A stretch of 64,000 bases of DNA from Alloprevotella rava (GTDB taxonomy: Bacteria > Bacteroidota > Bacteroidia > Bacteroidales > Bacteroidaceae): NCBI RefSeq assembly GCF_014195585.1, contig NZ_JACICA010000003.1, positions 124,001-188,000 of the forward strand, given 5' to 3'. Made by a program: the position numbers and the translations under genes. The notes under the pieces were generated by a model. The model ran no database searches and was not told the origin of the DNA. It saw only the letters and a program-made list of their open reading frames with translations. The first letter of the stretch is position 1, and each line of letters begins with the position of its first letter. Positions 11,762 to 58,141 of the stretch are shown piece by piece.

Positions 11762-11802
11762 TTCGCTCCTGCTTTTCTCCTGATGGAGAGGAGGACTGGA
11801 GC
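11762..11802. other. Imperfect hairpin after the GltD-like gene
   Basis: GCTCC and TTCTCC on the left pair with GGAGA and TGGAGC on the right, with mismatches. The T-run lies on the plus-strand side, so it is not a good terminator for the minus-strand gene ending at 11810. Confidence 0.35.
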
Positions 11803-11809
11803 AGAATTT

Positions 11810-13150
11810 TTATTTGCTTCCTTGCTCGATTTCTTCGAGCAACTTAACGGCGTTTACGTATTCCTCGATGCCTAAAGCTACTTCTTGTGCGGCTTTCATC
11901 GCCAATACCACGGTTTGTGGGCGATGCACGACGTCACCTCCTGCGAAAACGCCGCGGCGAGTGGTCATGCCGTAGGGGCGTTCTACAATTTTGACATAGC
12001 CCTTTTCATCTGTTTCGATGCCGTCGGTAGTTGTCACAATGCGGCTTGAGGGGCGCGAACCAATGGCTAAGAAGATACGGTCGAACGGCTCAATGCGGTC
12101 GCCCTCTTCGCTGTGGATGCGCACGCTTCCCAAGCGGCCGCGGCGTCCTTCGATAAACTCCGTGGCGGTGGACTTCCACCAAAATTTCACTCCCTCTTTC
12201 AAAGCCTCTTCGTACTCGGCTCGAATGGCCGGCATCTCGGCATCGGTGCGGCGGTAGATAATCGTGACATCAGCGCCGAGGCGGATGGCGGTGCGGGCAG
12301 CGTCCATAGCCACATTTCCACCTCCGATAACGCCCACGCGCTCCCCTGCCTTGATGGGCACATTGCGCGCGCTGATAGCCCCCTCATTGAAAGCATTGAC
12401 TTGGTGGAGCAGATAGGTGGCTTGGTTCACTCCGCGCAGGCGCGCACCTTTCACATCGTTCATGTCGATAGGGACGGACGTGCCTGTTCCCATGAAAATG
12501 GCGTCGAAGCCTTGCGTGAAGAGCGAATCAACGGTCAGGCCGTTTTCTCCCACCATGGTGTTGGTGATGAAGTTTACGCCCAGCTCCTCTATCTTTTCTA
12601 TTTCCGCTCGCACAACGGTTTTGGGCAAACGATACTCGGGGATGCCGAACATCAGCACGCCTCCTAAATCTTTCTGTCCTTCATAAATCGTCACGGAGAA
12701 GCCTTTGCGCGCCAGATTGCCCGCCACCGTCAGACCGGCGGGGCCTGAACCAATCACGGCGATCTTGCCGCGACTTTTCTGCACGATGCGCTCGCGGTTG
12801 AACTGCATCTTCGTGTCGAAATCGGCAATAAAGGATTCGAGTCGCCCAATCTGTATGGGGTTTCCTTTCTTATTGAGTATGCAACTGCCTTGGCATTGTT
12901 TCTCGTGCGGACAAACACGGCCACAGATGGCGGGGAGGTCCGATGTTTCGTTGATGATGGCCATGGCGTCGCCAATGTTCCCTTTCGAGAGCTGGTGGAT
13001 AAACTCCGGTATGTTGTTGTTTATCGGGCAGCCTTTTCGGCACAGTGGCACTTTGCAGTGGAGGCATCGTTTGGCCTCGTCGATGGCTTCGCGTGTGCTG
13101 AAAGATTGGTGGACAACCTTGAAGGCTTCATTTGTTTCTTGTTGAGTCAT
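11810..13150 (-). CDS. gltD: GltD-like NAD(P)H-dependent FAD/Fe-S oxidoreductase
   Basis: Resembles the small subunit of glutamate synthase, which passes electrons from NADPH through FAD and Fe-S centres. Residues about 25-110 hold two Cys clusters ('CLHCKVPLCRKGCP' and 'CGRVCPHEKQCQGSC'); a first Rossmann motif 'GSGPAGLTVAG' near 134 binds FAD and a second, 'GVIGGGNVAMDAARTA', near 270 binds NAD(P)H. 446 residues is normal for the small subunit. No large subunit (gltB) is adjacent, so it may serve a gltB elsewhere or act as a stand-alone ferredoxin:NADP oxidoreductase, a common ambiguity for this family. A good promoter lies at 13180-13210. Confidence 0.8.
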   Translation of the reverse strand: MTQQETNEAFKVVHQSFSTREAIDEAKRCLHCKVPLCRKGCPINNNIPEFIHQLSKGNIGDAMAIINETSDLPAICGRVCPHEKQCQGSCILNKKGNPIQIGRLESFIADFDTKMQFNRERIVQKSRGKIAVIGSGPAGLTVAGNLARKGFSVTIYEGQKDLGGVLMFGIPEYRLPKTVVRAEIEKIEELGVNFITNTMVGENGLTVDSLFTQGFDAIFMGTGTSVPIDMNDVKGARLRGVNQATYLLHQVNAFNEGAISARNVPIKAGERVGVIGGGNVAMDAARTAIRLGADVTIIYRRTDAEMPAIRAEYEEALKEGVKFWWKSTATEFIEGRRGRLGSVRIHSEEGDRIEPFDRIFLAIGSRPSSRIVTTTDGIETDEKGYVKIVERPYGMTTRRGVFAGGDVVHRPQTVVLAMKAAQEVALGIEEYVNAVKLLEEIEQGSK

Positions 13151-44340: not shown

Positions 44341-44406
44341 CGATGAAAAGCCGAAAGTGAGGAATTTTCTGTTTCTGCCCTTTTCTGTGCGATGAAGAAA
44401 GGCCGT

Positions 44407-44490
44407 AAATACAATAAGGGCGTCAGCTGGTAGCCTTATTGTGTCAGCTGACATCCTTATTGTATTTTCAAACGCAATAAGGATATTTTT
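44407..44490. repeat. Palindromic intergenic repeat, copy E
   Basis: AAATACAATAAGG at one end, CGCAATAAGGATATTT at the other; two cores, one as CAGCTGG. It lies just upstream of the AlkD-like promoter and 230 bp before the porin-imelysin operon. The 230-bp stretch after it (44491-44719) holds a possible Fur-like site (44695-44717) and no gene. Confidence 0.9.
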
Positions 44491-44719
44491 GGAGGTGATT
44501 ATAAAGAGGTGTTTCCTTATGCTGTGGCTTTGTGTAGACTCCGTTTTTGTGGAAGAATATCTGTATTTTCCAGCTTCTTAGTCTTTATTTACCTTTTTTA
44601 GGGCATTGGGTATGGTAAGGCGTTTTTGTTCTTTTGTACTGAAAATATAATGGTATTCGATACTCGCTCAAGTCTGGACGAGATTTCAATATACGATAAT
44701 AGTAATCAGACAATTATTT

Positions 44720-46015
44720 ATGATGAAGAACGAAAAGTTAAAACTCGTTTTAGGCGTCTTGGGTTTGAGTATGAGTATGACTATCTCGGCTCAAGTCAAT
44801 GCTGCCGATTCAGTGATGAATCATGTGAAGGGGAATCGCTTGAGTGTTGGCGGATACGGTGAAGTGGCTTATTCCCGCAACTTTTATAGTGACAATGTTT
44901 ATCGTTATGCCAATCCTGCGAAATACAAGAATGGCAAGAGTCACGGACGTTTCGATTTGCCTCACGTTGTAGTTTATTTGGGCTACGACTTCGGTAAAGG
45001 CTGGAGCATGGGTACAGAAATCGAGTTTGAACATGGCGGTACGGGTTCGGCTTACGAGCGCGAATACGAAGAAGGTGGCGAATGGGAAGTAGAGACCGAG
45101 AAAGGCGGCGAAGTGGAGCTGGAGCAGTTCTGGTTGCAGAAATCCTTCTCTCGTGCTTTCAACCTCCGCGCCGGACATATCGTAGTGCCCGTTGGCCTTA
45201 ACAACAGCCACCACGAACCGCTCAATTTCTTTACCGTCTATCGTCCAGAAGGCGAAAACACTATCCTGCCCTCCACATGGCACCAGACGGGAGTGAGCCT
45301 CTGGGGACACTTTCGCAACTTCAAATATGAAGTGCAGTTCCTCGAGGGACTTGACGCGATGCAGTTCGACCGTGATGGCTGGATTAAGAAAGGTCCTCAC
45401 AGCGCGTTCGAATTCTCTCCTGCCAGCAAATATGCTGTGGCAGCACGCCTCGACTGGTATGCGATGCCAGGTATGCGCTTAGGTGTGAGCGGCTACTATG
45501 GCCACTCCATCAATAATACGCTGATGAACGATGCCAATGAGAAACTCAAAGGCGCTGTTACGATAGGTAGCGTTGACTTTACGCTGAATAAATACAACTG
45601 GATTGTGCGCGCTCAGGCCACTTATGGACATCTCGCCGATGCCTATTTCGTGAAAACCCTCTCAGGACGTAGCACAAAGACTAGCCCTTACAGTTCTTCG
45701 GAAGTAGGTAAGAACGCTGTGGCCCTCGGTGTTGAAGCTGGCTACGACCTCTTCTCGCGCTTCGACAAACTGCGTGCTAACGAGAAAAAACTATATGTAT
45801 TCGGTCGTTACGACTACTATAACCCCTACATCCGCGACCATCGTCAAGCACCTTATCCCTATGAGGAAAGAAACAAGCTGACCTTTGGTTTCAACTACTA
45901 TCCGTTGCCGCAAATCGTTATCAAGGCCGACTACGGCGTGCGTATGTTCAAGTCGCCCTATAACAATGAGCCAAGCCTCAATTTCGGCGTTGCTTACGAG
46001 GGCTTCTTCCTCTAA
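44720..46015 (+). CDS. Outer-membrane porin-like protein of the imelysin operon
   Basis: 431 residues; signal peptide 1-24 ('LSMSMTISAQ'), then a barrel with alternating strands: 'RFDLPHVVVYLGYDFGKGWS', 'FNLRAGHIVVPVGLNNSHHE' and C-terminal 'SLNFGVAYEGFFL'. It resembles the OprO/P-like and copper/iron-linked porins of Bacteroidetes, but no substrate residues are visible. It heads the run porin-imelysin-dihaem oxidoreductase-CcsBA, 50 nt ahead of the imelysin gene, so an envelope transport role with them is likely. Confidence 0.78.
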   Translation: MMKNEKLKLVLGVLGLSMSMTISAQVNAADSVMNHVKGNRLSVGGYGEVAYSRNFYSDNVYRYANPAKYKNGKSHGRFDLPHVVVYLGYDFGKGWSMGTEIEFEHGGTGSAYEREYEEGGEWEVETEKGGEVELEQFWLQKSFSRAFNLRAGHIVVPVGLNNSHHEPLNFFTVYRPEGENTILPSTWHQTGVSLWGHFRNFKYEVQFLEGLDAMQFDRDGWIKKGPHSAFEFSPASKYAVAARLDWYAMPGMRLGVSGYYGHSINNTLMNDANEKLKGAVTIGSVDFTLNKYNWIVRAQATYGHLADAYFVKTLSGRSTKTSPYSSSEVGKNAVALGVEAGYDLFSRFDKLRANEKKLYVFGRYDYYNPYIRDHRQAPYPYEERNKLTFGFNYYPLPQIVIKADYGVRMFKSPYNNEPSLNFGVAYEGFFL

Positions 46016-46065
46016 TGAACGCGTGATATTCCAACAGACAAACAATTCTTTTATATAACACAACA

Positions 46066-47346
46066 ATGAAAAAGATTTTCATGTATGCTTTGCTGTTCGC
46101 AGCAGCTAGCGCAACCGTTCTCGGTTTCAATTCTTGCAGTAGCGATGATCCCGATCACACTCAGACGCTTACTGAGGAAGAAATGTATCTGCAAAAGGTG
46201 CTCGGTTCTTACGTGGACAACACGATCAATCCCACCTATGCCAGCATGGCTCGCAATGCAGAGACTTTCTATGAGCATATGAAAGCTCTCCGCGATGCAG
46301 TGGAGAAGGGTACGGCCACCCAAGCTATGGTGGACAAGGCTTGTGAGAGCTGGAAAGCTACGCGTGCCGACTATGAGAAGAGCGAAGCCTTCTTGCTCGG
46401 TGCTGCCAGCGACTACAACATCGACCCGCACATCGACACTTGGCCCCTTGACCTGACGGCTCTCCACAACCTCCTGTCAAGCCCCAACCTGCTGAAGAAC
46501 ATCACTACCTCTGATGACGAAGCCAACATCGAGTATGCCCACAACAACCTCAACCAGAACCTCCTCGGTTTCCACGCTGTAGAGTTCGTTATCTTCCGCG
46601 ACGGTGCGCCCCGTAAGGTGGCATCTTTCACCAGCGGTAATGACAACTTCAACGATGGCGTTGACTTCACGGACATCAGCGCACTCGATGAGCTGAAGTA
46701 TTCAGTGGCTGTTTCTGGCGACCTGAAGTATTCAATCTTCGAACTGGAAGTGTGCTGGGCTGGCGGTACGGAAGCTCACAAGAAAGCCCTCGAAGCACAG
46801 GAGAGAAAGACTACGATGCCTAGCTCTACTATCACTTATGGCGAAAACATGAAGAAAGCAGGCCAGCCAGGTAGTCTCTACACCTCTATCAAAGGTGCAG
46901 TGTCCGCCATCCTCAGTGGTGACCACGGCTGTGTAGGTATCATTGACGAGGTAGGTCAGACTAAGATGGGTAAACCCTATGGTCTCGGCACGAACGATGA
47001 GAACAAGGAATCCGACCCTAACTATATAGAGTCTCCTTTCTCCCACAACTCGCTGACCGACTTCTGGGACAACATCGAGAGTCTGAATAATGTATGGAAC
47101 GGCGGTTATGATGCCAGCAAGCGCAGCACTATGTCCTTCGCAAGCTACTTTAAGAAGTACAACCCCAAACTGGGCGCAAAGGTGCAGAAAGCTATCAACG
47201 ATGCACAGGCAAAGATCAAAGCTTGTCCCGCTCCGTTCGTGACCAACTACAAGAATGCTCAAGTGCTGGCAGCTATCAATGCTTGCGATGAGCTGACAAA
47301 GGCTATCCAAGAAGCTGACGAATTTATCCAGCAGAAGAAAAAGTAA
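46066..47346 (+). CDS. Imelysin-family lipoprotein
   Basis: 426 residues; lipobox ending at Cys24 ('GFNSC'). The family metal motif GxHxxE is present as G168-F-H170-A-V-E173 ('LLGFHAVEF'). Helical-bundle pattern with segments such as 'YASMARNAETFYEHMKALRD' and 'SKRSTMSFASYFKKYNPKLG'. Imelysin proteins (M75, IrpA/EfeO-related) bind or help take up iron; a peptidase role is doubtful. Lies between a porin gene and a di-haem oxidoreductase gene, a pairing that is known for DUF1111-type enzymes in proteobacteria. Confidence 0.9.
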   Translation: MKKIFMYALLFAAASATVLGFNSCSSDDPDHTQTLTEEEMYLQKVLGSYVDNTINPTYASMARNAETFYEHMKALRDAVEKGTATQAMVDKACESWKATRADYEKSEAFLLGAASDYNIDPHIDTWPLDLTALHNLLSSPNLLKNITTSDDEANIEYAHNNLNQNLLGFHAVEFVIFRDGAPRKVASFTSGNDNFNDGVDFTDISALDELKYSVAVSGDLKYSIFELEVCWAGGTEAHKKALEAQERKTTMPSSTITYGENMKKAGQPGSLYTSIKGAVSAILSGDHGCVGIIDEVGQTKMGKPYGLGTNDENKESDPNYIESPFSHNSLTDFWDNIESLNNVWNGGYDASKRSTMSFASYFKKYNPKLGAKVQKAINDAQAKIKACPAPFVTNYKNAQVLAAINACDELTKAIQEADEFIQQKKK

Positions 47347-47379
47347 ACGACAACGAATCATTTAACAACTGAAAGCAAA

Positions 47380-47409
47380 CACCCATCTACCCTAAACGGG
47401 GTAGGTGGG
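47380..47409 (+). other. Intercistronic hairpin
   Basis: CCCATCTACCC with GGGTAGGTGGG (11 bp, one G-U pair), loop 5-6 nt, no T-run, between the imelysin and di-haem genes. Probably slows or protects the message rather than ending it. Confidence 0.6.
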
Positions 47410-47433
47410 AGTTCGCGGCTAAAACAACATACA

Positions 47434-49161
47434 ATGAGAAATTTATCATCTTACTTGTTGATGGGTATCGCTGCATTGTCCGCTGCATCCTGTACGGACA
47501 ATACCGACACGCCTGTAGGACCTTCTTATCACAAGGATTCCCTCGCCGTGTTCTCACAAGCCGAATGGCTACCGGGAGGTGAGAAAGGAACCACCAGTAA
47601 TGAGCAAGGTTGCTATTCAAATCCCGCTCCCGCTGTTGAACTGGCAGGTTTGGATCTCACGTTTAAGAATGGCGAGAACTTCTTTGAGCACAACGCCAAC
47701 CTCTTTACGCGTCCGTTCTGGGGACTTGGTCCTGCTTGGGTTCGTACCGGTTGCGAATTTTGTCACCCTTCTTACGGTCACGGTAAGCGTCAAACAGAGT
47801 ACCGCGCTAACAAGATGGGCAACGGCTACTTGCTCGTGATTTATCACCCAACGGCAGGCGTCGACGGAAACGGCAAACCCTATGCTGCAAACTCTTACAT
47901 CACCGAAGTAACGGGTATGCCGCAAACTCAGGCTATGCACCCCTTCAAAGCACCTGTTGACGAGAAGGGTATCACTATTACGTGGAAGAATGCAACGGAT
48001 GAACACGGCAATAAGTTTCCCGATGGCGAAACTTACGAACTCTCTTATCCTGATGTGCAAATAGCCCAATCGGCCTTCAATACAAAACCGCTGCCTACTA
48101 ACTATGAGGTGCGCCTCGAGTCCACTATCGGTATGTACGGTACAGGCCTTATCGACGCCATCAGTCAGGACTCTATGCGCGTTCAGTACCAGCGCGAGGC
48201 TCGCTTCGCAAAGCTGAACCCCGGCATGTGGGATCACGCTACTAACGACTGGGCTACTACCGCTTGGTACAAACTGGCAGATGGTCAGAAGCGTATTAAG
48301 AAGTTTACCTACGGTATGACACGCGCCACATTGCTCGATGGCCCTGGTGGTAATGCAATATGGAACATCACCAATGTGACCCGTTCCGATCGTCACTACC
48401 TCTACACTACCGCTGCTTGGGCTAAGGCCATGAGCGAGGATGCCGATGTAATTGAAAGCATCAAGAAGGAAGGCGGTAGCTTCTCCTCTCTGCTTCATCC
48501 CTACTATGGCGACGGTTCAACAGACAGTATCAAGACGCTTGTCAACAAGCTCCTCGGACTGAACAGAAATACGCCTGAAATGCGCGCCGACTATGAGAAG
48601 TATATCGTTAATGCAGCACCTTGGAACGGTCGCGAAGAGATGACCGATGAGGACTTCTATGCTTTCGGTGTTTGGCACCGTGGTCTCGGTGTGCCCAAGG
48701 CACGTAATTTGGACAATCCCGAAGTGCAGCGTGGTAAGAAGCTCTTCTATCAGATGGGCTGTACGAACTGCCACCGCCCTTCTTGGACTATCAAGAAGGA
48801 CAACATCTGGATTGACAACGCCAGCAAGGCTTATATGGCTACACATCCTAACGCTAAGTTCCCCACTTACGATGATACGGTGATCTGGCCTTATACCGAC
48901 TTGGTTCAGCACAAGCTCCACATGGTCAACGATATTCGCGCTGGTTGGTGCCGTACTACTCCGCTCTGGGGGCGTGGTCTTTCCACGCAAGAAACGGGTG
49001 AAGGTTCACGCCTCCACGACTGTCGTGCTAAGAATGTTATAGAAGCCATCATGTGGCACGGATATAGCAAAGAAAGCGATGCTTACGCTGCTTCGCAGAA
49101 GTTCTATCGTTTGTCGAAGAGTGACCGCGAAGCCGTTGTAGCATTTATCAATGCTATCTAA
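47434..49161 (+). CDS. Di-haem c-type oxidoreductase (DHOR/DUF1111-like)
   Basis: 575 residues; signal peptide with possible lipobox 'LSAASC' (Cys20). Two CxxCH haem-attachment sites: C107-E-F-C110-H111 ('CEFCHPSYGHG') and C443-T-N-C446-H447 ('GCTNCHRP'). Order, length and 'LHDCRAKNVIEAIMWHGYS' near the end fit the di-haem oxidoreductase/putative peroxidase family, often next to imelysin genes. Located in the periplasm or on the outer membrane's inner face. It requires covalent haem, which the next gene (CcsBA) can provide. Confidence 0.9.
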   Translation: MRNLSSYLLMGIAALSAASCTDNTDTPVGPSYHKDSLAVFSQAEWLPGGEKGTTSNEQGCYSNPAPAVELAGLDLTFKNGENFFEHNANLFTRPFWGLGPAWVRTGCEFCHPSYGHGKRQTEYRANKMGNGYLLVIYHPTAGVDGNGKPYAANSYITEVTGMPQTQAMHPFKAPVDEKGITITWKNATDEHGNKFPDGETYELSYPDVQIAQSAFNTKPLPTNYEVRLESTIGMYGTGLIDAISQDSMRVQYQREARFAKLNPGMWDHATNDWATTAWYKLADGQKRIKKFTYGMTRATLLDGPGGNAIWNITNVTRSDRHYLYTTAAWAKAMSEDADVIESIKKEGGSFSSLLHPYYGDGSTDSIKTLVNKLLGLNRNTPEMRADYEKYIVNAAPWNGREEMTDEDFYAFGVWHRGLGVPKARNLDNPEVQRGKKLFYQMGCTNCHRPSWTIKKDNIWIDNASKAYMATHPNAKFPTYDDTVIWPYTDLVQHKLHMVNDIRAGWCRTTPLWGRGLSTQETGEGSRLHDCRAKNVIEAIMWHGYSKESDAYAASQKFYRLSKSDREAVVAFINAI

Positions 49162-49178
49162 TTTAGCTAACTCTTAAA

Positions 49179-49226
49179 AACTCCGAAACTCCTCTTCTCG
49201 TTTTGATGGGAGAGAGTTTCGGAGTT
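49179..49226 (+). other. Strong hairpin between di-haem and CcsBA genes
   Basis: AACTCCGAAACTC (49179-49191) pairs perfectly with GAGTTTCGGAGTT (49214-49226), 22-nt loop, C-rich rather than T-rich after it. It could be a weak terminator or attenuator that lowers ccsBA relative to the upstream genes. 130 bp of ordinary leader follow. Confidence 0.65.
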
Positions 49227-49356
49227 CTGCTGTCCTGACGATACGCTTCCTTAGCGTGCGCGTAGTGTTTCTGAATAAGCTGGAGGAAACAATTTTTTTG
49301 CTGTTGGCGCGTTAAGAGAGGACAGTGGAAACAATATCTAAATAACATAGCGCGAG

Positions 49357-51609
49357 ATGCTGAAGAAAATAGTTATAACTCTCTATGTGCTGATAGTAGT
49401 GTTGTTAGCTGCCATTACAATCATTGAAAATACCTACGACACCACTTTTGTGAATCAGCACTTCTATGGTAGCTGGTGGTTTAGCCTTTTGTGGGCTTTG
49501 CTCACTGCTGCTGGCATTACCTATATAGTGCAACGCCGACTGAAGCAGTGGGGCTTGCTCTTGCTCCACCTCTCCTTCGTCGTGATTCTATTGGGCGCGT
49601 GGCTCACCCATGTCACTTCGTTCAAAGGCACGGTACACCTGCGCGGCGACCAACCTACGAACCAGTATTCCGTGATGACGTCGATGACCGACACAGAGCA
49701 CCACACGCTGCCTTTCTACGTGAGGCTCGACCGCTTCCAAGTGGTCAATACCGCCGGAACGCTTGCGCCTACGGACTATGTAACGAACTTCGTCATTATT
49801 GATGGGGCGAAGAATCAGCCCGCACAAGTGTCAATGAACAAAGTGTACACTTATCGCGGCGTGCGTTTCTATCAAGCCAGCTACGACACCGATGAGCGCG
49901 GGAGCTACCTCAGTGTGAACAGCGACCCTTGGGGGCTGCCCGTCACTTATATAGGGTATGCGCTCCTTTTCTTCTCTCTGCTCTGGTTGCTCCTTGAGCC
50001 GAAGGCCACTTTCCGCCGCCTTCTCAAGAGTCCGCTGCTTCGCAAGGGCGCGCTCATGTTTGTGCTGGTGGCTTTCTCCTCGTTCCTGCCCGCTGCGAGC
50101 CAGGCAGCCACCACGGTGGACCGTGCTACTGCCGATAAGTTTGGCCGACTTTTCATCAACTACAACAACCGCATTTGTCCCGTTCAGACCTTTGCTTGCG
50201 ATTATGTGAAGAAGCTCTACGGCAAGCGTACCTATGAAGGACTCACACCCGAACAGGTGCTGACAAGCTGGATTTTCTTCCCCCGCGAATGGCGCAACGA
50301 GCATATCATTCGCGTGAAGAGCAGCGAGCTGCGCGAACATTTTGGATTGTCGGACTATGAGAGTGTGCATTCCTTCTTCCGCGATGGCAACTACATACTG
50401 GGCCCTTACGCCCATGAGTATGCCGAGGGGCAGACCGATGCCCTCCATAAAGCCTGCGCTGAGATGGACGCCAAACTGCAAGTGTGTATGTTCTTGCAAG
50501 AGGGTAGTGCGCTCACCATCTTCCCCCACACGGCGGGAGCTAACACTATCTGGTATAGTCCTGCTGATAGTCTGCCATCCTCTCTGGGGCAGATGAACAT
50601 TCTTTTCTTCCGCAACGCTTTCCCTTTGCTCTACGATCAGATTGTTTCGGGCGATGTGTCGAGTGCTAACCACGTGCTCGACAAAATGCTCTCCTATCAG
50701 CAGCAGAATGCAGGCCAGAGTCTGCCCACACCCATGCAGGTAGAGGCCGAGCGCATCTACAACGTAGTACCTTTCGCCACCATCTTGGCCATGGCGAACC
50801 TCGCGCTGGGTTTTCTGGCCTTGTTCTTGACCATTCGCCGCTTGATGCGAAATGACGGCAAGGCTCTATCGCGCAAGACCGACTATGTGCTGCTCGCGCT
50901 CTTAGGCGTGTCGTTCTTGACGCTTACTTTCAGCCTGGCTCTTCGCTGGATTGTTTCCGGCAATGTGCCGTTGAGCAACGGCTATGAGTCGATGCTCTCT
51001 GTGGCATGGTTTGTGGAATTGTTGAGCATCGTGGCCTATCGCAAAGCTCGTATTGTCCTCGTCTTTGGTTTCTTGCTGAGCGGTTTCTTCCTCTTGGTGA
51101 GCCATATCAGTCAGATGGACCCCGCCATTGGCCCTATGATGCCCGTGCTCAATTCGCCGCTGCTCTCGATTCATGTGAGCATCATCATGATGAGCTACGC
51201 ACTGCTGTCGCTCACTTTCATCTGTGCGCTCACGGCCGTTCTCATCCATTTCTTGATGCGTAAGGCCATCTCGAAGGCTGAGCGCGATTTGCGCGACGAA
51301 CGCTTAGAAGCCTTGCAGGTGTTGAGCCGCCTTTTCCTCTATCCCTCTATCACCACCATGGGGCTGGGCATCTTCATCGGTGCCATTTGGGCCAATATCA
51401 GTTGGGGGGCTTATTGGAGTTGGGACCCCAAGGAAACGTGGGCACTCATCACTTTTATGATTTATGCCGTTGTGCTCCACACGCAGAGTCTGCCCACCTT
51501 CCGCCGCCCCATGGTCTACCACCTCTATATGCTCGTGGCTTTCCTCAGCATCGTGATGACCTATTTTGGCGTGAACTATATCCTCGGCGGTATGCACAGC
51601 TATGCGTAG
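49357..51609 (+). CDS. ccsA: Cytochrome c biogenesis protein CcsBA (ResB-CcsA fusion)
   Basis: 750 residues. The N-terminal half is ResB/CcsB-like (membrane segments at about 5-25, 40-60, 65-85 and a large periplasmic domain from about 90); the C-terminal half is CcsA, with at least six membrane helices and the haem-binding WWD region 'WANISWGAYWSWDPKETWAL' (near 670-690). Single-chain CcsBA exports haem and attaches it to CxxCH motifs, needed for the di-haem protein encoded upstream. Presence in the same cluster suggests a private maturation system. It ends only 90 bp before a truncated porin. Confidence 0.94.
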   Translation: MLKKIVITLYVLIVVLLAAITIIENTYDTTFVNQHFYGSWWFSLLWALLTAAGITYIVQRRLKQWGLLLLHLSFVVILLGAWLTHVTSFKGTVHLRGDQPTNQYSVMTSMTDTEHHTLPFYVRLDRFQVVNTAGTLAPTDYVTNFVIIDGAKNQPAQVSMNKVYTYRGVRFYQASYDTDERGSYLSVNSDPWGLPVTYIGYALLFFSLLWLLLEPKATFRRLLKSPLLRKGALMFVLVAFSSFLPAASQAATTVDRATADKFGRLFINYNNRICPVQTFACDYVKKLYGKRTYEGLTPEQVLTSWIFFPREWRNEHIIRVKSSELREHFGLSDYESVHSFFRDGNYILGPYAHEYAEGQTDALHKACAEMDAKLQVCMFLQEGSALTIFPHTAGANTIWYSPADSLPSSLGQMNILFFRNAFPLLYDQIVSGDVSSANHVLDKMLSYQQQNAGQSLPTPMQVEAERIYNVVPFATILAMANLALGFLALFLTIRRLMRNDGKALSRKTDYVLLALLGVSFLTLTFSLALRWIVSGNVPLSNGYESMLSVAWFVELLSIVAYRKARIVLVFGFLLSGFFLLVSHISQMDPAIGPMMPVLNSPLLSIHVSIIMMSYALLSLTFICALTAVLIHFLMRKAISKAERDLRDERLEALQVLSRLFLYPSITTMGLGIFIGAIWANISWGAYWSWDPKETWALITFMIYAVVLHTQSLPTFRRPMVYHLYMLVAFLSIVMTYFGVNYILGGMHSYA

Positions 51610-51614
51610 GGGAG

Positions 51615-51696
51615 AAATACAATAAGCGCGTCGGCCGACAGCCTTATTCTGTCAGCTGACATCCTTATTGTATTTTCAAACGCAATAAGGATATTT
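51615..51696. repeat. Palindromic intergenic repeat, copy F, fused to a truncated gene
   Basis: AAATACAATAAG at the left, two core copies (TCGGCCGAC and TCAGCTGAC), AACGCAATAAGGATATTT at the right. It begins 6 bp after the ccsBA stop and ends exactly where porin homology begins (about 51697). Confidence 0.92.
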
Positions 51697-52632
51697 ACGC
51701 TCAAGGATACTTATTTACAGTATAGTTTCCAGAAGAATAACTTCCTTCGTGCCGGTTACTACACCGTGCCCTTCGGTCTCTCTTCTGCTTACAGCTCTGC
51801 TAAGAAAGAATACATGGACGAGCCAGAAGGAAACGTGTATCAAGTGGGCCGCCGCCTTGGTGTGATGCACACTATTTATAACAAGCCTTTCTGGGGACAG
51901 TATGGTGTGTTTGCCGACAATTCTGCACTGACAAAGAGTACCGACAAGAGTGGTCGTCAGGGCTACACGTTGGCTGCTCGTGGCGTTTGGCGTCCTATCA
52001 TGACTCAGGATTATGGCTTCCATGTAGGTTTCTCTTGGAACCGTGTGCAAGCTGAGGCTACCTCTAAGGGCAAACATGCTGCCATTGCTTACAACAAACG
52101 CTATCTCACCGTAGTGGATAAGACCGTGGCAACGGGGCTGACTCTCACAGATGCACGTTGGGAGAATAAATTTACAGCTGAGTTCCAAGGTATCTACCGC
52201 AACTTCCAGCTCTCCAGCCAGTACTATTGGTCGCACATTGCTCGCGAAGACGGTAATAGCTACGATACGGATGGTTTCTACGTTTCAGCACGTGGTATCA
52301 TTGTGAACCCAGGTAACTACAAGTACAACTTTGCTGGCTCTGGCGTTGACAATCCTTCTAATAACAACCTCGAATTGATGCTCGGCTATGGTTATCTGAA
52401 TCTCCGCGATGGCGATGCTTATGCAAAGAATCAGGCAGCTATTGCTGCTGGCATGCCAAGCGTTGACCTTTCCAAGGCTGGCCGTATGAGCGACATCAGC
52501 GCAGGTCTTTCCTACTTCTTGAACAAGCACGTCACCTTCCGTTTGAACTATCACTATGTGACGGTGAAGAACTTCGATCTTGAGAAAAAGAACGTCAATG
52601 TGCTTCAGGCCCGCGTTCAGTATATGTTCTAA
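51697..52632 (+). pseudogene. 5'-truncated phosphate-selective-porin-like gene
   Basis: From about 51697 the frame encodes 'LKDTYLQYSFQKNNFLRAGY', 'YTVPFGLSSAYSSAKKEYMD' and onward to a normal barrel end 'NVNVLQARVQYMF', 311 codons of sequence that match the last two thirds of an OprO/P-type porin. There is no signal peptide; a GTG at 51766 is the only start and lies inside the conserved strand. The frame is open back through the repeat to codon 51610, directly after and in phase with the ccsBA stop TAG. The missing 5' end was replaced by repeat copy F, so the gene is probably dead, unless read through from ccsBA. Confidence 0.8.
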
Positions 52633-53209: not shown

Positions 53210-53275
53210 TATCCAGAGAGTCATCGGAAAAGCCAGGTGACTGGCGAGTTTTTAACCATAACATTTTACTATATT

Positions 53276-56200
53276 ATGAAACCAATTTACTCTATTTTAT
53301 ATGGGTTGTTGGGGTTGACGCTGTTTTTTTCAGCAGGTTCGCTCCATGCCCAAAATAATTATGTACAAGTATCTGATGCTAATGGTAATCTACTGAGGTA
53401 TTATTGCAATACTACGACCGGGCAAGCTTCTTTTATTGGTGTTGCCCAGTATGCAGTAGATGACGGTACAGCTTCAGTAGTGATTGCCGATGAGGTGACA
53501 GCAGCTGGTGGCCAGGTATTTCCCGTGACGGAAGTTCGAGCATCTGCCTGTAAATCTAATTCCAGTTTGGGGCAGTTGACCTTGGGGAGTAAAATCCATA
53601 TGCTGGGTAAGGAAAGCTTCTATGGCTGTCGGAATCTGAAGAAAGTAGTTCTCAATAGCCAATTAGACACTATTGCTTCTAATGCTTTTCAAGACTGTAA
53701 AGTCTTGAAGGATATTCAGTTGGAGCAGGCAACAAAACTACGCTTTATTGGAAATTATGCGTTCAATAATTCTTCCATCATGCAGGTCATCATGCCTCCA
53801 ATGGTGAAAACTATAGGTATGTCGGCTTTCTCTAATTGTAAAAACTTGCGGCAAGTAAAAATGAACGATGCCTTGAGTTACATGGGAAGCAAAGCCTTTC
53901 AGAGCTGCGATAGTTTGAAGACTGTTGAGTTTGGGAATGGACTTCGCACCATTACTTCCGAAGCGTTCTATTCATGTAAGGCTCTGACTAATGTGAAAAA
54001 CTTAGAGCGTATAACGCGAGTTGAGAGCAACGCTTTTAAGTTTGCTACAAGCGTGCAGGAGTTAACTTTCGGAGATTCATTACAGAATGTTGATATGTAT
54101 GCTTTCTCATGCTGCTACAATCTGCATACATTGACCTTTGGAAAGAGCTTAAAGAATATTGGTAATTACAGTCTTAGTCAATGTTTTTCTTTGCAAAAAA
54201 TTATACTTCCAGGCTCTATTTGTCCGTTTGGCCAGTATTTTTCCTTTCCCAAAACAGGAATAAATCTATATGTTCCTCTTGAAATGGTTGCAGTGTATCA
54301 GGGGAAAAATAATATACGTGGGCAGAACATTATAGCATTGGGTATGCCGGTGACGTTTGATGTGACGACAACGGCGGGAGGCGAACTCCAGACGAAGGTG
54401 GAAGCTTTGGGGCTTGCTACCAATGTGATGGAACTGACTGTCAGCGGGCCTATCAATGGTACTGATATTGACTATATTCACGGAAAACTAAGAGTTTTGC
54501 AGAAGCTTGACCTCCAGCAAGCACAGATTGTGGGCGGTGGCGATAGCTATCATATGTGGGGATTTACATCTAGTGGAATTCCTGCGAAATATCCCAACTA
54601 TAGCTTTAATACAGAGCCGAATGTCGTGGGCGATTATATGTTTTACAATATGCCACAGCTTCGGAGCTTAAAGCTACCTGTTGATGCCATTAAGATTGCC
54701 TCTTATGCTGTATCAAGAGTAGGATTGACTGAATAGGTTGATATTCCTGCTCATGTTGAAGAAATTGGTGAAGGAGCTTTCTCAGGATGTGGTAGTTTGC
54801 CTGGCGTTGTATTGAACCCAACTCTTAAAGAGATAGGTAAAGGAGCTTTTACCTCTTGTATCAGCTTGGCAGGAATAGATATTCCTAACTCTGTAAATTC
54901 TATTGGTCAAGAAGCTTTTTCGAAATGCGAAAATCTGCAAAATGTGAAGTTGCCCGATGCTCTGAAAGTAATTAATAGAGAGACTTTCGAACATTGTAAA
55001 AATTTGGAGCGTGTGACGTTGCCTTCTCGCTTAGAGGTGCTTGAAAATAGAGCTTTTTCTAATTGTGGTAATCTGTCATCTCCTATCACGATTCCCGGTA
55101 CGGTAACGAATATATGTTTTTATGCATTTGAAAACTGTGTGAAAATACCCGAGCTAATCATAGAAGAAGGAGTGGAACAGATTTCTCAAGGTGCTTTCAT
55201 GGCATGTAGGCTACTGACAAAGGTGACACTTCCTTCCACATTAAAAACAATTGAGCAGGAGGCTTTCTACAAATGTTCTCACCTAACAGATATTAGTATC
55301 CCAGAAGGTCTTTCCACACTGGGGGATGAAGTTTTCTTTAGTTGTGACAGTTTGCGCTCTATTACTCTTCCTGTATCAATAACGGAGATACCCAAAGGTA
55401 CGTTTTTAGGATGTAAAAAATTAGAGACAGTCAATCTGTCATCAGAATTGACGACTATCGGGACAGACGCATTTATATATTGTGAGAACTTGAAGTCGTT
55501 TGACTTTTCTGCTTATCCGAAACTGACTACGCTTCAAAAAGATTGTTTTAGCCAAACAGGACTACAACGCGTGGAACTTCCAGATCAGATAAATACGATA
55601 GAAATTGGAGTTTTTGGAAAATGCTCGAAGCTGGAACATATCAATGTGCCAACAGCGTTGACGGCAGTTCCTGATTATTTTGTATATAAATGTCCGGTAT
55701 TGACCGAAGTGGTGATGCATGCGGGAATTAAAACGATTGGGCGTAATGCTTTTTCAGATTGCATCGAATTGGAACATATAGATCTGCCCAATGGAATCAG
55801 CGAGATATCTAGTGGTGCTTTCTTACATTGCAAAAAACTACAAATAACGGAATTGCCTTTGGGACTTACCAACATAGGTTCTTATGCTTTTTCAGGAACT
55901 TCCGCACTTGATAGTATCAGCATCCCCAGAGGAGTTCAGATTCTGGGACCTGGTGCTTTTGAAGAAAGTGGCGTGCGCATTGTGGAACTTCCCGAAGGAA
56001 TTAAAACATTTTACGATAAGGTCTTTAATAAATGTCAGCGGCTAACAAAGGTTGTTTGGCCTGCAGATCAGAAGGAGATACCTTCTAAGACTTTCTACCA
56101 ATGTGATACACTCTCAACTTTTGATATTCCATTAGGGGTAACAGAGATTAAAAGTAGTGCTTTTGCAGAATGCAAAAACCTCTACAGTGTTAGCTTTCCA

Positions 56201-58141
56201 GAAACACTAAAGAAAATAGGATGGAGAGCTTTCGATAATTGTGCCTTAAAAGAAGTGGAGATTCCTGATTCCGTTACAGAAGTCGGCAATGAAGCTTTTG
56301 CAAACAATAAGTCTTTACGCAAAGCCTTTATGGGGCGTAATATTGTCTATAAGAATGGAGCTAAGTTTAATTTCTTTTCCCAATGTGACTCTCTTCAGTT
56401 GCTCCGCATCTTTGTTTCAAAACCGATACCGATGTCAGAATATGATGCTTCTACTTGTATGTCGTATCGGAAAAAATGTGTGCTTGAAGTGCCCTCTGGC
56501 TGTGATAGTATTTACCGTGCTACTGATGTGTGGAGAGATTTCAAGGAAATTCGCGGTGTGACAGTTGGGGGCGATACGCTTGCCGCAGTCGATTTTGCAC
56601 TGCTCAAGATGATTTATGACCGATTGGATGGGAAAAACTGGACTAACCAGTGGGATCTCTCCTCTCCGGATCGCTTTGAGGGAAAGTGGCATGGTGTGAC
56701 AACGGATGGCGATCATATCACTGAAATAGTGTTGTACAACACCGAACTGCGCGGAGAAATCTTTGCAGAACTCTTCACGCTGCCTACACTGACTCGTCTT
56801 GAATTGACTAACGGAGAACTGAGGGGGAGTATCAATAAAGTGCTGGAAGGTAAGGAACAAAATGTCAGTCCTGTACTGAAAACAATAGCTCTCTCTTGCA
56901 ATCAGCTGACGGGCGACTTGTCTCCTTTTGCTAATAGTTTTCCTGCTCTGGAGAAACTTTATGTCGACTATAATCAACTGACTGCTATTTCTGTACCTAT
57001 CCATTCTTCGATCAGAGAGTTGGATTATTCGTGGCAGTTTATTGATCCCAATACACAAACCCCTGTAGTCTCCGATTCTTGTCCTGTTGTGCAGGTAGCT
57101 CTCGGTACTCCTTTTGAGCCCATAATTAGCACACTGCAAACTTATGATCATGAGAAGCAGGACTATAGTCGGGATAACTTCCGTAAAAATAAAATATATC
57201 ATTACACTATACTTGACGAAAATGAACCTGTACTTATGGTTAATCCATCGGCTTTCATTTACGACTCTTCCATAGACAAATTTAAAGTTGGTAGTGACCA
57301 ATTTGCTAAAGTGCCTCGGAATACGCCACAACCGTTTTGTTGCACTGGTTCTCCTTATGTGCCATTTTATTTCTCCTTGGACTGGATTGATGGTGATGTG
57401 AATATGGACAGAAATGTGGATCTTATCGATTTGCAATCTCTCATATATTATTGTGCTCATGAGAGCTCTTCATCTCAATTTCCTTTCAATTATATGACGG
57501 GTGATACCAATGAGGACAAAGAGATAGACGTGCGCGATGCAGTAGTTACTGTCAATCGTATTTTGGACTGGAAGGGCGAAGAGCCGCATCCGTCGCGTCC
57601 TTACTTTGCTGCACCCACAGTGGCTTGCAATGTAGTTGCTATAGAGGGTAACACGCTCCGTCTTGTCAACGCGGAAGAAGTGGCGGGTATCCAGCTCTCT
57701 CTGCAAGGTGTTAGTTCCGACGAGCTTCGCAAAGCTTCTGCGGTTAGTGGTATGAAGATGGCTTGCCGACAGACGGAAGAAGGGCTTCGCGTTTTGCTCT
57801 ATTCTTTCAGTGGGCAGACACTACAGCCCGGACAGCACGACCTCTTTGTTCAACTTCCGGCTGGAACTACAGTGTCTAAGGTTATATTAACCAATTTGGA
57901 TGCTAAACGTCTTGATGCCGTCGTTGCTTCAACGCTAACGGGATTGAATCAGATTTCACAAAATGAGATAGACCGTCTCTTTGCTGACGCTTCAGGGGAC
58001 ACAGTGCTATGTATCTATGCTCTTGACGGCCGTTTGCTCTATCAAGGGCAGCCACATATTGAACACTTTACCTCTCTTCCAAAGGGCACTTATGTGCTTC
58101 GTCTCGGAAACCGAACATACAAGGTGACGAGAGCTAAGTGA
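53276..58141 (+). pseudogene. BspA-like leucine-rich-repeat surface protein, interrupted by one in-frame TAG
   Basis: One continuous frame of 1,621 codons interrupted only by TAG at 54734-54736 (codon 487). Signal peptide 1-26 ('SAGSLHAQ'). More than 20 LRR-5 (TpLRR/BspA) repeats of about 23 residues, e.g. 'IGSYAFSGTSALDSISIP', occur on both sides of the stop, in the same phase. Later come a non-LRR domain (about 1090-1370), two dockerin-like repeats 'GDVNMDRNVDLIDL' and 'GDTNEDKEIDVRDA' (57391-57560), a cohesin-like region, and a T9SS-type tail ending 'GTYVLRLGNRTYKVTRAK'. Family role: adhesion to host or other bacteria. The TAG could be a nonsense mutation, a sequencing error or a recoded codon. 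Downstream translation could restart, but no signal peptide would be present. Confidence 0.85.
57391..57570 (+). other. Dockerin-like calcium-binding repeats
   Basis: Two DxNxDxxxxxxD motifs, 'GDVNMDRNVDLIDL' and 'GDTNEDKEIDVRDA', spaced as in type I dockerins, inside the BspA-like protein just before its C-terminal T9SS tail. Confidence 0.65.

Follow-up and report, generated by a model that had tools for sequence, protein, structure and literature searches.

Introduction

A paper of 2011 (PMC3143127) described operons that pair an imelysin with a protein of the DUF1111 family and connected them to iron; the iron control of a Bacteroides form was reported in 2023 (Lewis & Gui 2023, PMC10434189). 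In Bacteroides thetaiotaomicron, this form is the gene run BT2473-82, annotated as fimbrillin, CcsA, hypothetical, porin, thiol oxidoreductase, peptidase M75, hypothetical and helix-turn-helix (HTH). Its genes are induced 63-324x in low iron and 14-33x in a cited colitis data set, and the authors mark them as present only in B. thetaiotaomicron among their three species (PMC10434189). In this study, we analyzed a gene block of similar composition from Alloprevotella rava, contained in a stretch of 64,000 nucleotides (contig NZ_JACICA010000003.1, positions 124,001 to 188,000; hereafter, the window). The block encodes a porin, an imelysin lipoprotein, a di-haem oxidoreductase (DHOR) lipoprotein of the DUF1111 family, of which "thiol oxidoreductase" is an older name, and CcsBA, a cytochrome c synthase in which ResB and CcsA are fused. 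We found that the first three genes form a conserved module of the Bacteroidales, and that this module most probably serves iron acquisition under iron starvation.

Results

A first-pass annotation, made from the sequence alone, had proposed four consecutive genes on one strand at 44720-51609, and the four reading frames are all intact at these positions:

44720-46015, + strand: porin, 431 aa, intact open reading frame
46066-47346, + strand: imelysin lipoprotein, 426 aa, intact open reading frame
47434-49161, + strand: DHOR/DUF1111 di-haem lipoprotein, 575 aa, intact open reading frame
49357-51609, + strand: CcsBA (fused ResB-CcsA), 750 aa, intact open reading frame

The motifs that it had recognized, namely GxHxxE in the imelysin, two CxxCH sites in the DHOR and WWD in CcsBA, are all present as it had described them.

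Conservation was surveyed in two sets, one of 80 Prevotella-type loci retrieved via the di-haem protein, the other of 149 Bacteroidales genomes drawn evenly across the order, roughly one per family. The order porin, imelysin, DHOR is kept on one strand in 79 of the 80 Prevotella-type loci, and the 80th is cut by a contig end; in L046, imelysin and DHOR are 3.8 kb apart. Across the order, imelysin and DHOR each occur in 17 of the 149 genomes. Both are present in 16, plus one genome with each alone, and in all 16 the two genes are adjacent and collinear; their co-occurrence alone has a hypergeometric probability of 2e-19. Moreover, a high-scoring porin (at least 236 bits; next best, 95) lies directly upstream in exactly those 16 genomes. 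Porin, imelysin and DHOR are a real conserved module, with these three genes as its minimal core. The first-pass annotation had asked for such a neighborhood survey and had held that a lack of conserved order would speak against a functional unit; instead, the gene order holds across the Bacteroidales. The patchy distribution of the core within the order indicates that it has been lost or gained as a block, and the G+C content of the module resembles that of its surroundings. An imelysin in genome G118 (L129) was rejected as a module member, as it sits in a DUF4856/HTTM-type cluster. A search for riboswitches and other known RNAs upstream of the module returned none, apart from one below-threshold and surely spurious match to a viral microRNA model inside a repeat described below.

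The imelysin gene at 46066-47346 is the only one in the genome. Its product carries a single M75 domain and matches the family over its full length (PF09375, E 4.5e-44, profile positions 3-285 of 288); the GxHxxE motif reads GFHAVE at residues 168-173, in the non-permuted arrangement, and the lipobox reads LGFNSC. Relatives in the PDB include 3n8u and 4ecg. The DHOR matches PF06537 (E 4.4e-27, 95 bits against a cut-off of 22, best stretch at profile positions 346-498) and has a lipobox cysteine at C20 and haem sites CEFCH at 107 and CTNCH at 443. Both CxxCH sites are retained in 77 of 78 orthologous reading frames, the exception being a 5'-truncated frame in L053. A DHOR model has bacterial proteins like the di-haem cytochrome c peroxidases, MacA among them, as its 13 best structural matches, at weak scores (E 0.014).

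The 44720-46015 product has no Pfam or NCBIfam match, and is in this respect not a member of Porin_O_P (PF07396), which the second porin of L122 does match. The designation as porin, already given in the first-pass annotation, is thus supported by fold and not by family: an AlphaFold2 model (28 sequences, moderate pLDDT of 66) is a 16-strand barrel, whose best PDB matches by Foldseek are MOMP and OmpF-type general porins (E 1e-11). Residues 99-137, around the loop that connects predicted strands 3 and 4, contain 14 Asp or Glu among 39 positions, many of them invariant, and invariant Glu and His residues are found among the relatives. This acidic stretch would fit a path for cations. As a separate observation, distant homologues of the porin (24-30% identity) lie, by coordinates, within about 2 kb of hemerythrin-domain homologues in genomes G037, G051, G132 and G138.

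The published gene list of BT2473-82 was compared with the window and with the order-wide loci, and it shows like gene kinds in the order of the window, namely BT2480 (hypothetical), BT2479 (M75), BT2478 (thiol oxidoreductase) and BT2475 (CcsA). The run that typifies it, a porin-like gene, M75, DUF1111 and CcsA on one strand, is present in the window. Unlike the window, BT2473-82 has two additional genes between DHOR and CcsA (porin BT2477 and hypothetical BT2476). The same arrangement is seen in L122, whose order of porin, imelysin, DHOR, Porin_O_P, a 241-aa lipoprotein with one CxxCH site and CcsBA matches that of BT2473-82. The first-pass annotation had tied its proposal to an expression that responds to metals or redox state, and the published induction of this counterpart in low iron is such a response (PMC10434189). 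In addition, imelysin is among the iron-related proteins that change together in the proteome of Prevotella bryantii (PMC7709123).

The region upstream of the porin gene provides a further connection to iron, through one feature that the first-pass annotation had not noted:

44597-44636, + strand: promoter box variant TTTAGGGCATTG-N20-TTCTTTTG, upstream of the porin gene, in the loose form only

In relatives, the consensus upstream of the porin is TTTAGGTATTG-N19..21-TAnnTTTG, where TAnnTTTG is the usual -7 element of Bacteroidales. The exact box is present in 36 of 71 porin upstream regions of relatives and in 1 of 647 upstream regions of other genes from the same loci. Apart from the box of the window, nothing in the 2.56-Mb genome matches the loose pattern, and the reversed pattern, used as a control, has no match at all; the exact box has 25 occurrences in the genomes of 12 relatives (control, 0). 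Besides the module, it precedes genes for flavodoxin plus DUF2023 (in two species), TonB receptors, a TetR-TonB pair, an HMA protein and S-adenosylmethionine (SAM) methyltransferases, one of which is followed by a gene for a calycin-like lipoprotein. RNA-seq of iron-starved Prevotella intermedia showed induction of fldA-DUF2023 (159-164x), a TonB/TetR operon (129-289x) and a class I SAM methyltransferase (64x; PMC10434189). Because several kinds of genes that bear the box are strongly induced by iron starvation in P. intermedia, the box is probably a marker of iron-starvation promoters. Together with the induction of BT2473-82, its presence near such genes supports the iron link that the first-pass annotation had suggested. 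A scan for sigma-70 promoters yielded fewer matches than shuffled sequences, as expected for Bacteroidales promoters.

In about 50 of the 80 Prevotella-type loci, a divergent gene encodes a protein with hemerythrin and LuxR domains (PF01814 + PF00196). It is present in 14 of the 16 module genomes versus 75 of the 133 others (p 0.016), and the copy of the window genome lies elsewhere on the contig. With 89 of 149 genomes containing it, we rejected this gene as specific to the module, and the box was found in none of 50 upstream regions of the regulator gene itself. The split form is CdhR in Porphyromonas gingivalis and the fused form occurs in P. intermedia; CdhR regulates hmuYR, and its iron binding is unproven (PMC10434189). 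A CdhR-type hemerythrin-LuxR protein is possibly the activator that acts on the box.

CcsBA has the features of a System II synthase, that is, fused ResB and CcsA (PF05140 and PF01578 matches), the GAYWSWDPKETWA motif (WWD) and four histidines, and phmmer aligns it to the solved CcsBA 7s9y (E 1e-111). Residues H71, H606, H708 and H747 and the WWD columns are conserved, and these four histidines are presumably the haem ligands. A CcsBA-type gene follows the module in 12 of the 16 genomes, with two genes intervening in L122. Among the 80 Prevotella-type loci, a full-length CcsBA is encoded in 45 and missing in 12; for L041 and L066 it is displaced elsewhere in the genome, as frames of 740 and 726 aa. 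In eight loci, two of these cut or short, it has shrunk to about 386 aa (L063, at 11783-12946, L040, L052, L054, L058, L067, L069 and L079). This form lacks some 330 residues, equivalent to 225-557 of the CcsBA of the window, and keeps H71, H606, H708, H747, WWD and both Pfam domains. Four genomes that have it were tested, and in three of these no other Cytochrom_C_asm protein was found. A further 13 loci (L030:10442-11005 and 12 others) retain only the middle periplasmic piece, 190-250 aa long and without a Pfam match, downstream of the di-haem gene. No CcsA-domain gene was found in two of six middle-piece genomes, possibly incomplete assemblies, although DHOR keeps both haem sites there; indeed, the haem sites of DHOR are invariant whatever the state of CcsBA. 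We therefore regard CcsBA as a frequent partner of the module and not as a fixed member. Thus, the dedicated synthase envisaged in the first-pass annotation plausibly serves the module where present, but the counts of 12/16 and 45/80 do not make it a fixed fourth part.

The A. rava genome has a second synthase set, nrfH-nrfA-resB-ccsA, separate from the module. In B. thetaiotaomicron, the Nrf-linked synthase operon BT1414-18 (ccsA, resB) is repressed 30-36x in low iron, and the ccsA gene BT2475 is induced 104x (PMC10434189). A separate synthase for the module may therefore exist because the Nrf synthase would be shut down under the very conditions that call for the di-haem protein.

The lipidation sites of imelysin and DHOR are informative regarding their location. 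At least two acidic residues are found at positions +2 to +6 after the lipid cysteine in 67 of 76 imelysins and 65 of 73 DHORs, and the corresponding residues of the proteins in the window are SSDDP and TDNTD. The surface-export signal (LES) of Bacteroides fragilis is SDDDD (PMC5080379). Since the acidic residues resemble the LES, surface exposure of imelysin and DHOR is likely for the group and plausible for the window proteins. This argues against the topology of the first-pass annotation, in which a metal enters through the porin and is then held by imelysin, as that route assumes periplasmic proteins.

The following features flank the block:

44398-44500, no strand assigned: upstream copy of a palindromic repeat of about 82 bp, with inverted-repeat arms; the repeat occurs genome-wide
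51615-51696, no strand assigned: downstream copy of the same repeat, 93% identical, joining the 5'-truncated gene at 51766-52632
51766-52632: outer-membrane-protein gene that lacks its 5' portion, decayed-looking, with the frame open across the repeat and no signal peptide

Genome-wide, about 40 places were scored for the repeat, with 239 candidates at first look. The two copies, which the first-pass annotation had not noted, bracket the module in equal orientation. The 288-aa protein of 51766-52632 was rejected as a fifth member, being 5'-truncated and without relatives in the 80 loci. After the block, two large reading frames (53237-58141) have, by eye, the character of repetitive leucine-rich, BspA-like surface proteins. 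A protein of about 380 aa with a C-terminal Rid domain (PF01042) is repeatedly encoded just downstream of the module, in L004 (14044-15198) and 16 other loci, as well as in L122, L124 and L126. In the last three (L122:6756-8775), the operon is extended by a Porin_O_P protein and a lipoprotein of about 245 aa with a single CxxCH, located between DHOR and CcsBA or the Rid-family gene.

Discussion

Our results indicate that the locus is an iron-starvation-induced iron-acquisition module of the cell envelope, a reading to which we give a probability of roughly 0.7, its mechanism being unproven. When iron is scarce, an activator, possibly of the CdhR-type hemerythrin-LuxR kind, would turn on the operon from the TTTAGGTATTG-box promoter. 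In the periplasm, CcsBA would furnish the DHOR lipoprotein with its two haems, after which DHOR and imelysin would become attached to the outer membrane, probably facing the outside. Imelysin may then bind or hand over iron whose redox state DHOR alters, the acidic porin would admit the ion to the periplasm, and another transporter, for instance FeoB, would import it. In this scheme, we infer the surface location, the metal bound, the redox direction, the substrate of the porin and the identity of the activator. Taken by itself, the detailed redox order is tentative, with the odds somewhat against it.

Several points weigh against this reading. The module includes no inner-membrane iron permease, and two haems per DHOR are costly for an iron-starved cell. 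Many loci have no CcsBA, or one that is displaced or shrunken, and the fold match of DHOR is weak. Regarding the promoter, the A. rava genome has the variant and no exact box, and porin upstream regions outside the Prevotella group show no clear match to the exact box. Finally, BT2480 is a putative counterpart of the porin of the window, by its position.

The peroxidase-type matches of DHOR, which Pfam also calls a putative peroxidase, raise the question of whether this enzyme shields the envelope from hydrogen peroxide while Fe(II) is imported, leaving the iron work to imelysin and porin. We consider this unlikely: the matches are weak, the reported induction is by low iron (PMC10434189), and DHOR never stands apart from imelysin in the 16 genomes, a pattern suggestive of a reaction in which both take part. 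It is rather improbable that the module handles another metal or metal complex, with imelysin binding copper or DHOR acting on a haem-like complex, and that its induction in low iron reflects overlapping stress responses. The M75 protein EfeM prefers copper, iron and zinc (PMC9174327), and both the HMA protein and the calycin-like lipoprotein gene among the box-associated genes would suit such a role. However, most of what the box-bearing genes and the published fold changes show speaks for iron starvation (PMC10434189), proteobacterial imelysin operons are Fur-regulated (PMC3143127), and by Pfam none of the four genes belongs to a known haem-uptake family. That the four genes are mere neighbors without joint function, gathered by the 82-bp repeats that stand in equal orientation at both ends of the block, is hardly credible, since the order is kept in distant families, some 40 or more copies of the repeat are spread over the genome and the G+C content does not set the module apart.

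Returning to an iron-acquisition module, a more elaborate version would be a surface redox-and-hand-over system. The lipidated di-haem enzyme and imelysin would work outside, with an acidic cation porin beneath, and a separate synthase would stay active under iron starvation, when that of the nitrite reductase is shut off; some rumen species would have pared it down to a minimal form of 386 aa, the only synthase found in the genome. This version is doubtful as a whole. For Bacteroidales of the gut and mouth, iron is a principal limit during inflammation, and BT2473-82 is among the most induced loci in low-iron and colitis data (PMC10434189). The first-pass annotation knew of no characterization of the four-gene form; this holds with a qualification, as the counterpart had already been published as strongly induced by low iron and in colitis (PMC10434189). 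As far as the searched literature shows, the order-wide three-gene core, the box and its likely regulon, the variable and miniaturized synthase and the surface-signal pattern are newly described, prior reports of the box not having been searched for. Altogether, the analysis yields a minimal core, a testable box, a candidate activator and a reason for a separate synthase, and the natural CcsBA of about 386 aa could help to define the minimal needs of a cytochrome c synthase.

The locus can finally be placed among known systems. In PA4370-PA4373 of Pseudomonas aeruginosa and VC1264-1266 of Vibrio cholerae (PMC3143127), an imelysin likewise adjoins a di-haem DUF1111 protein, in the envelope and linked to iron. 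These operons differ in encoding a second imelysin-like protein (GxxxxE), whereas the window has one imelysin, a linked porin, a synthase and another type of box. EfeUOB also pairs an M75 protein with a haem enzyme for iron uptake. EfeB is called a DyP-family peroxidase in one source (PMC3577903) and is grouped with DUF1111 in another (PMC3143127). The haem enzyme of the window is DHOR and not a DyP-type EfeB, and the module genes include neither an EfeU (Ftr1-type) permease nor a cupredoxin-containing EfeO, EfeU elsewhere in the genome not having been searched for. The synthase resembles the Helicobacter-type CcsBA of 7s9y in its ResB-CcsA fusion, WWD motif and conserved histidines. That protein has about 940 aa, in contrast to the 750 aa of the window CcsBA, whose relatives shrink to about 386 aa.

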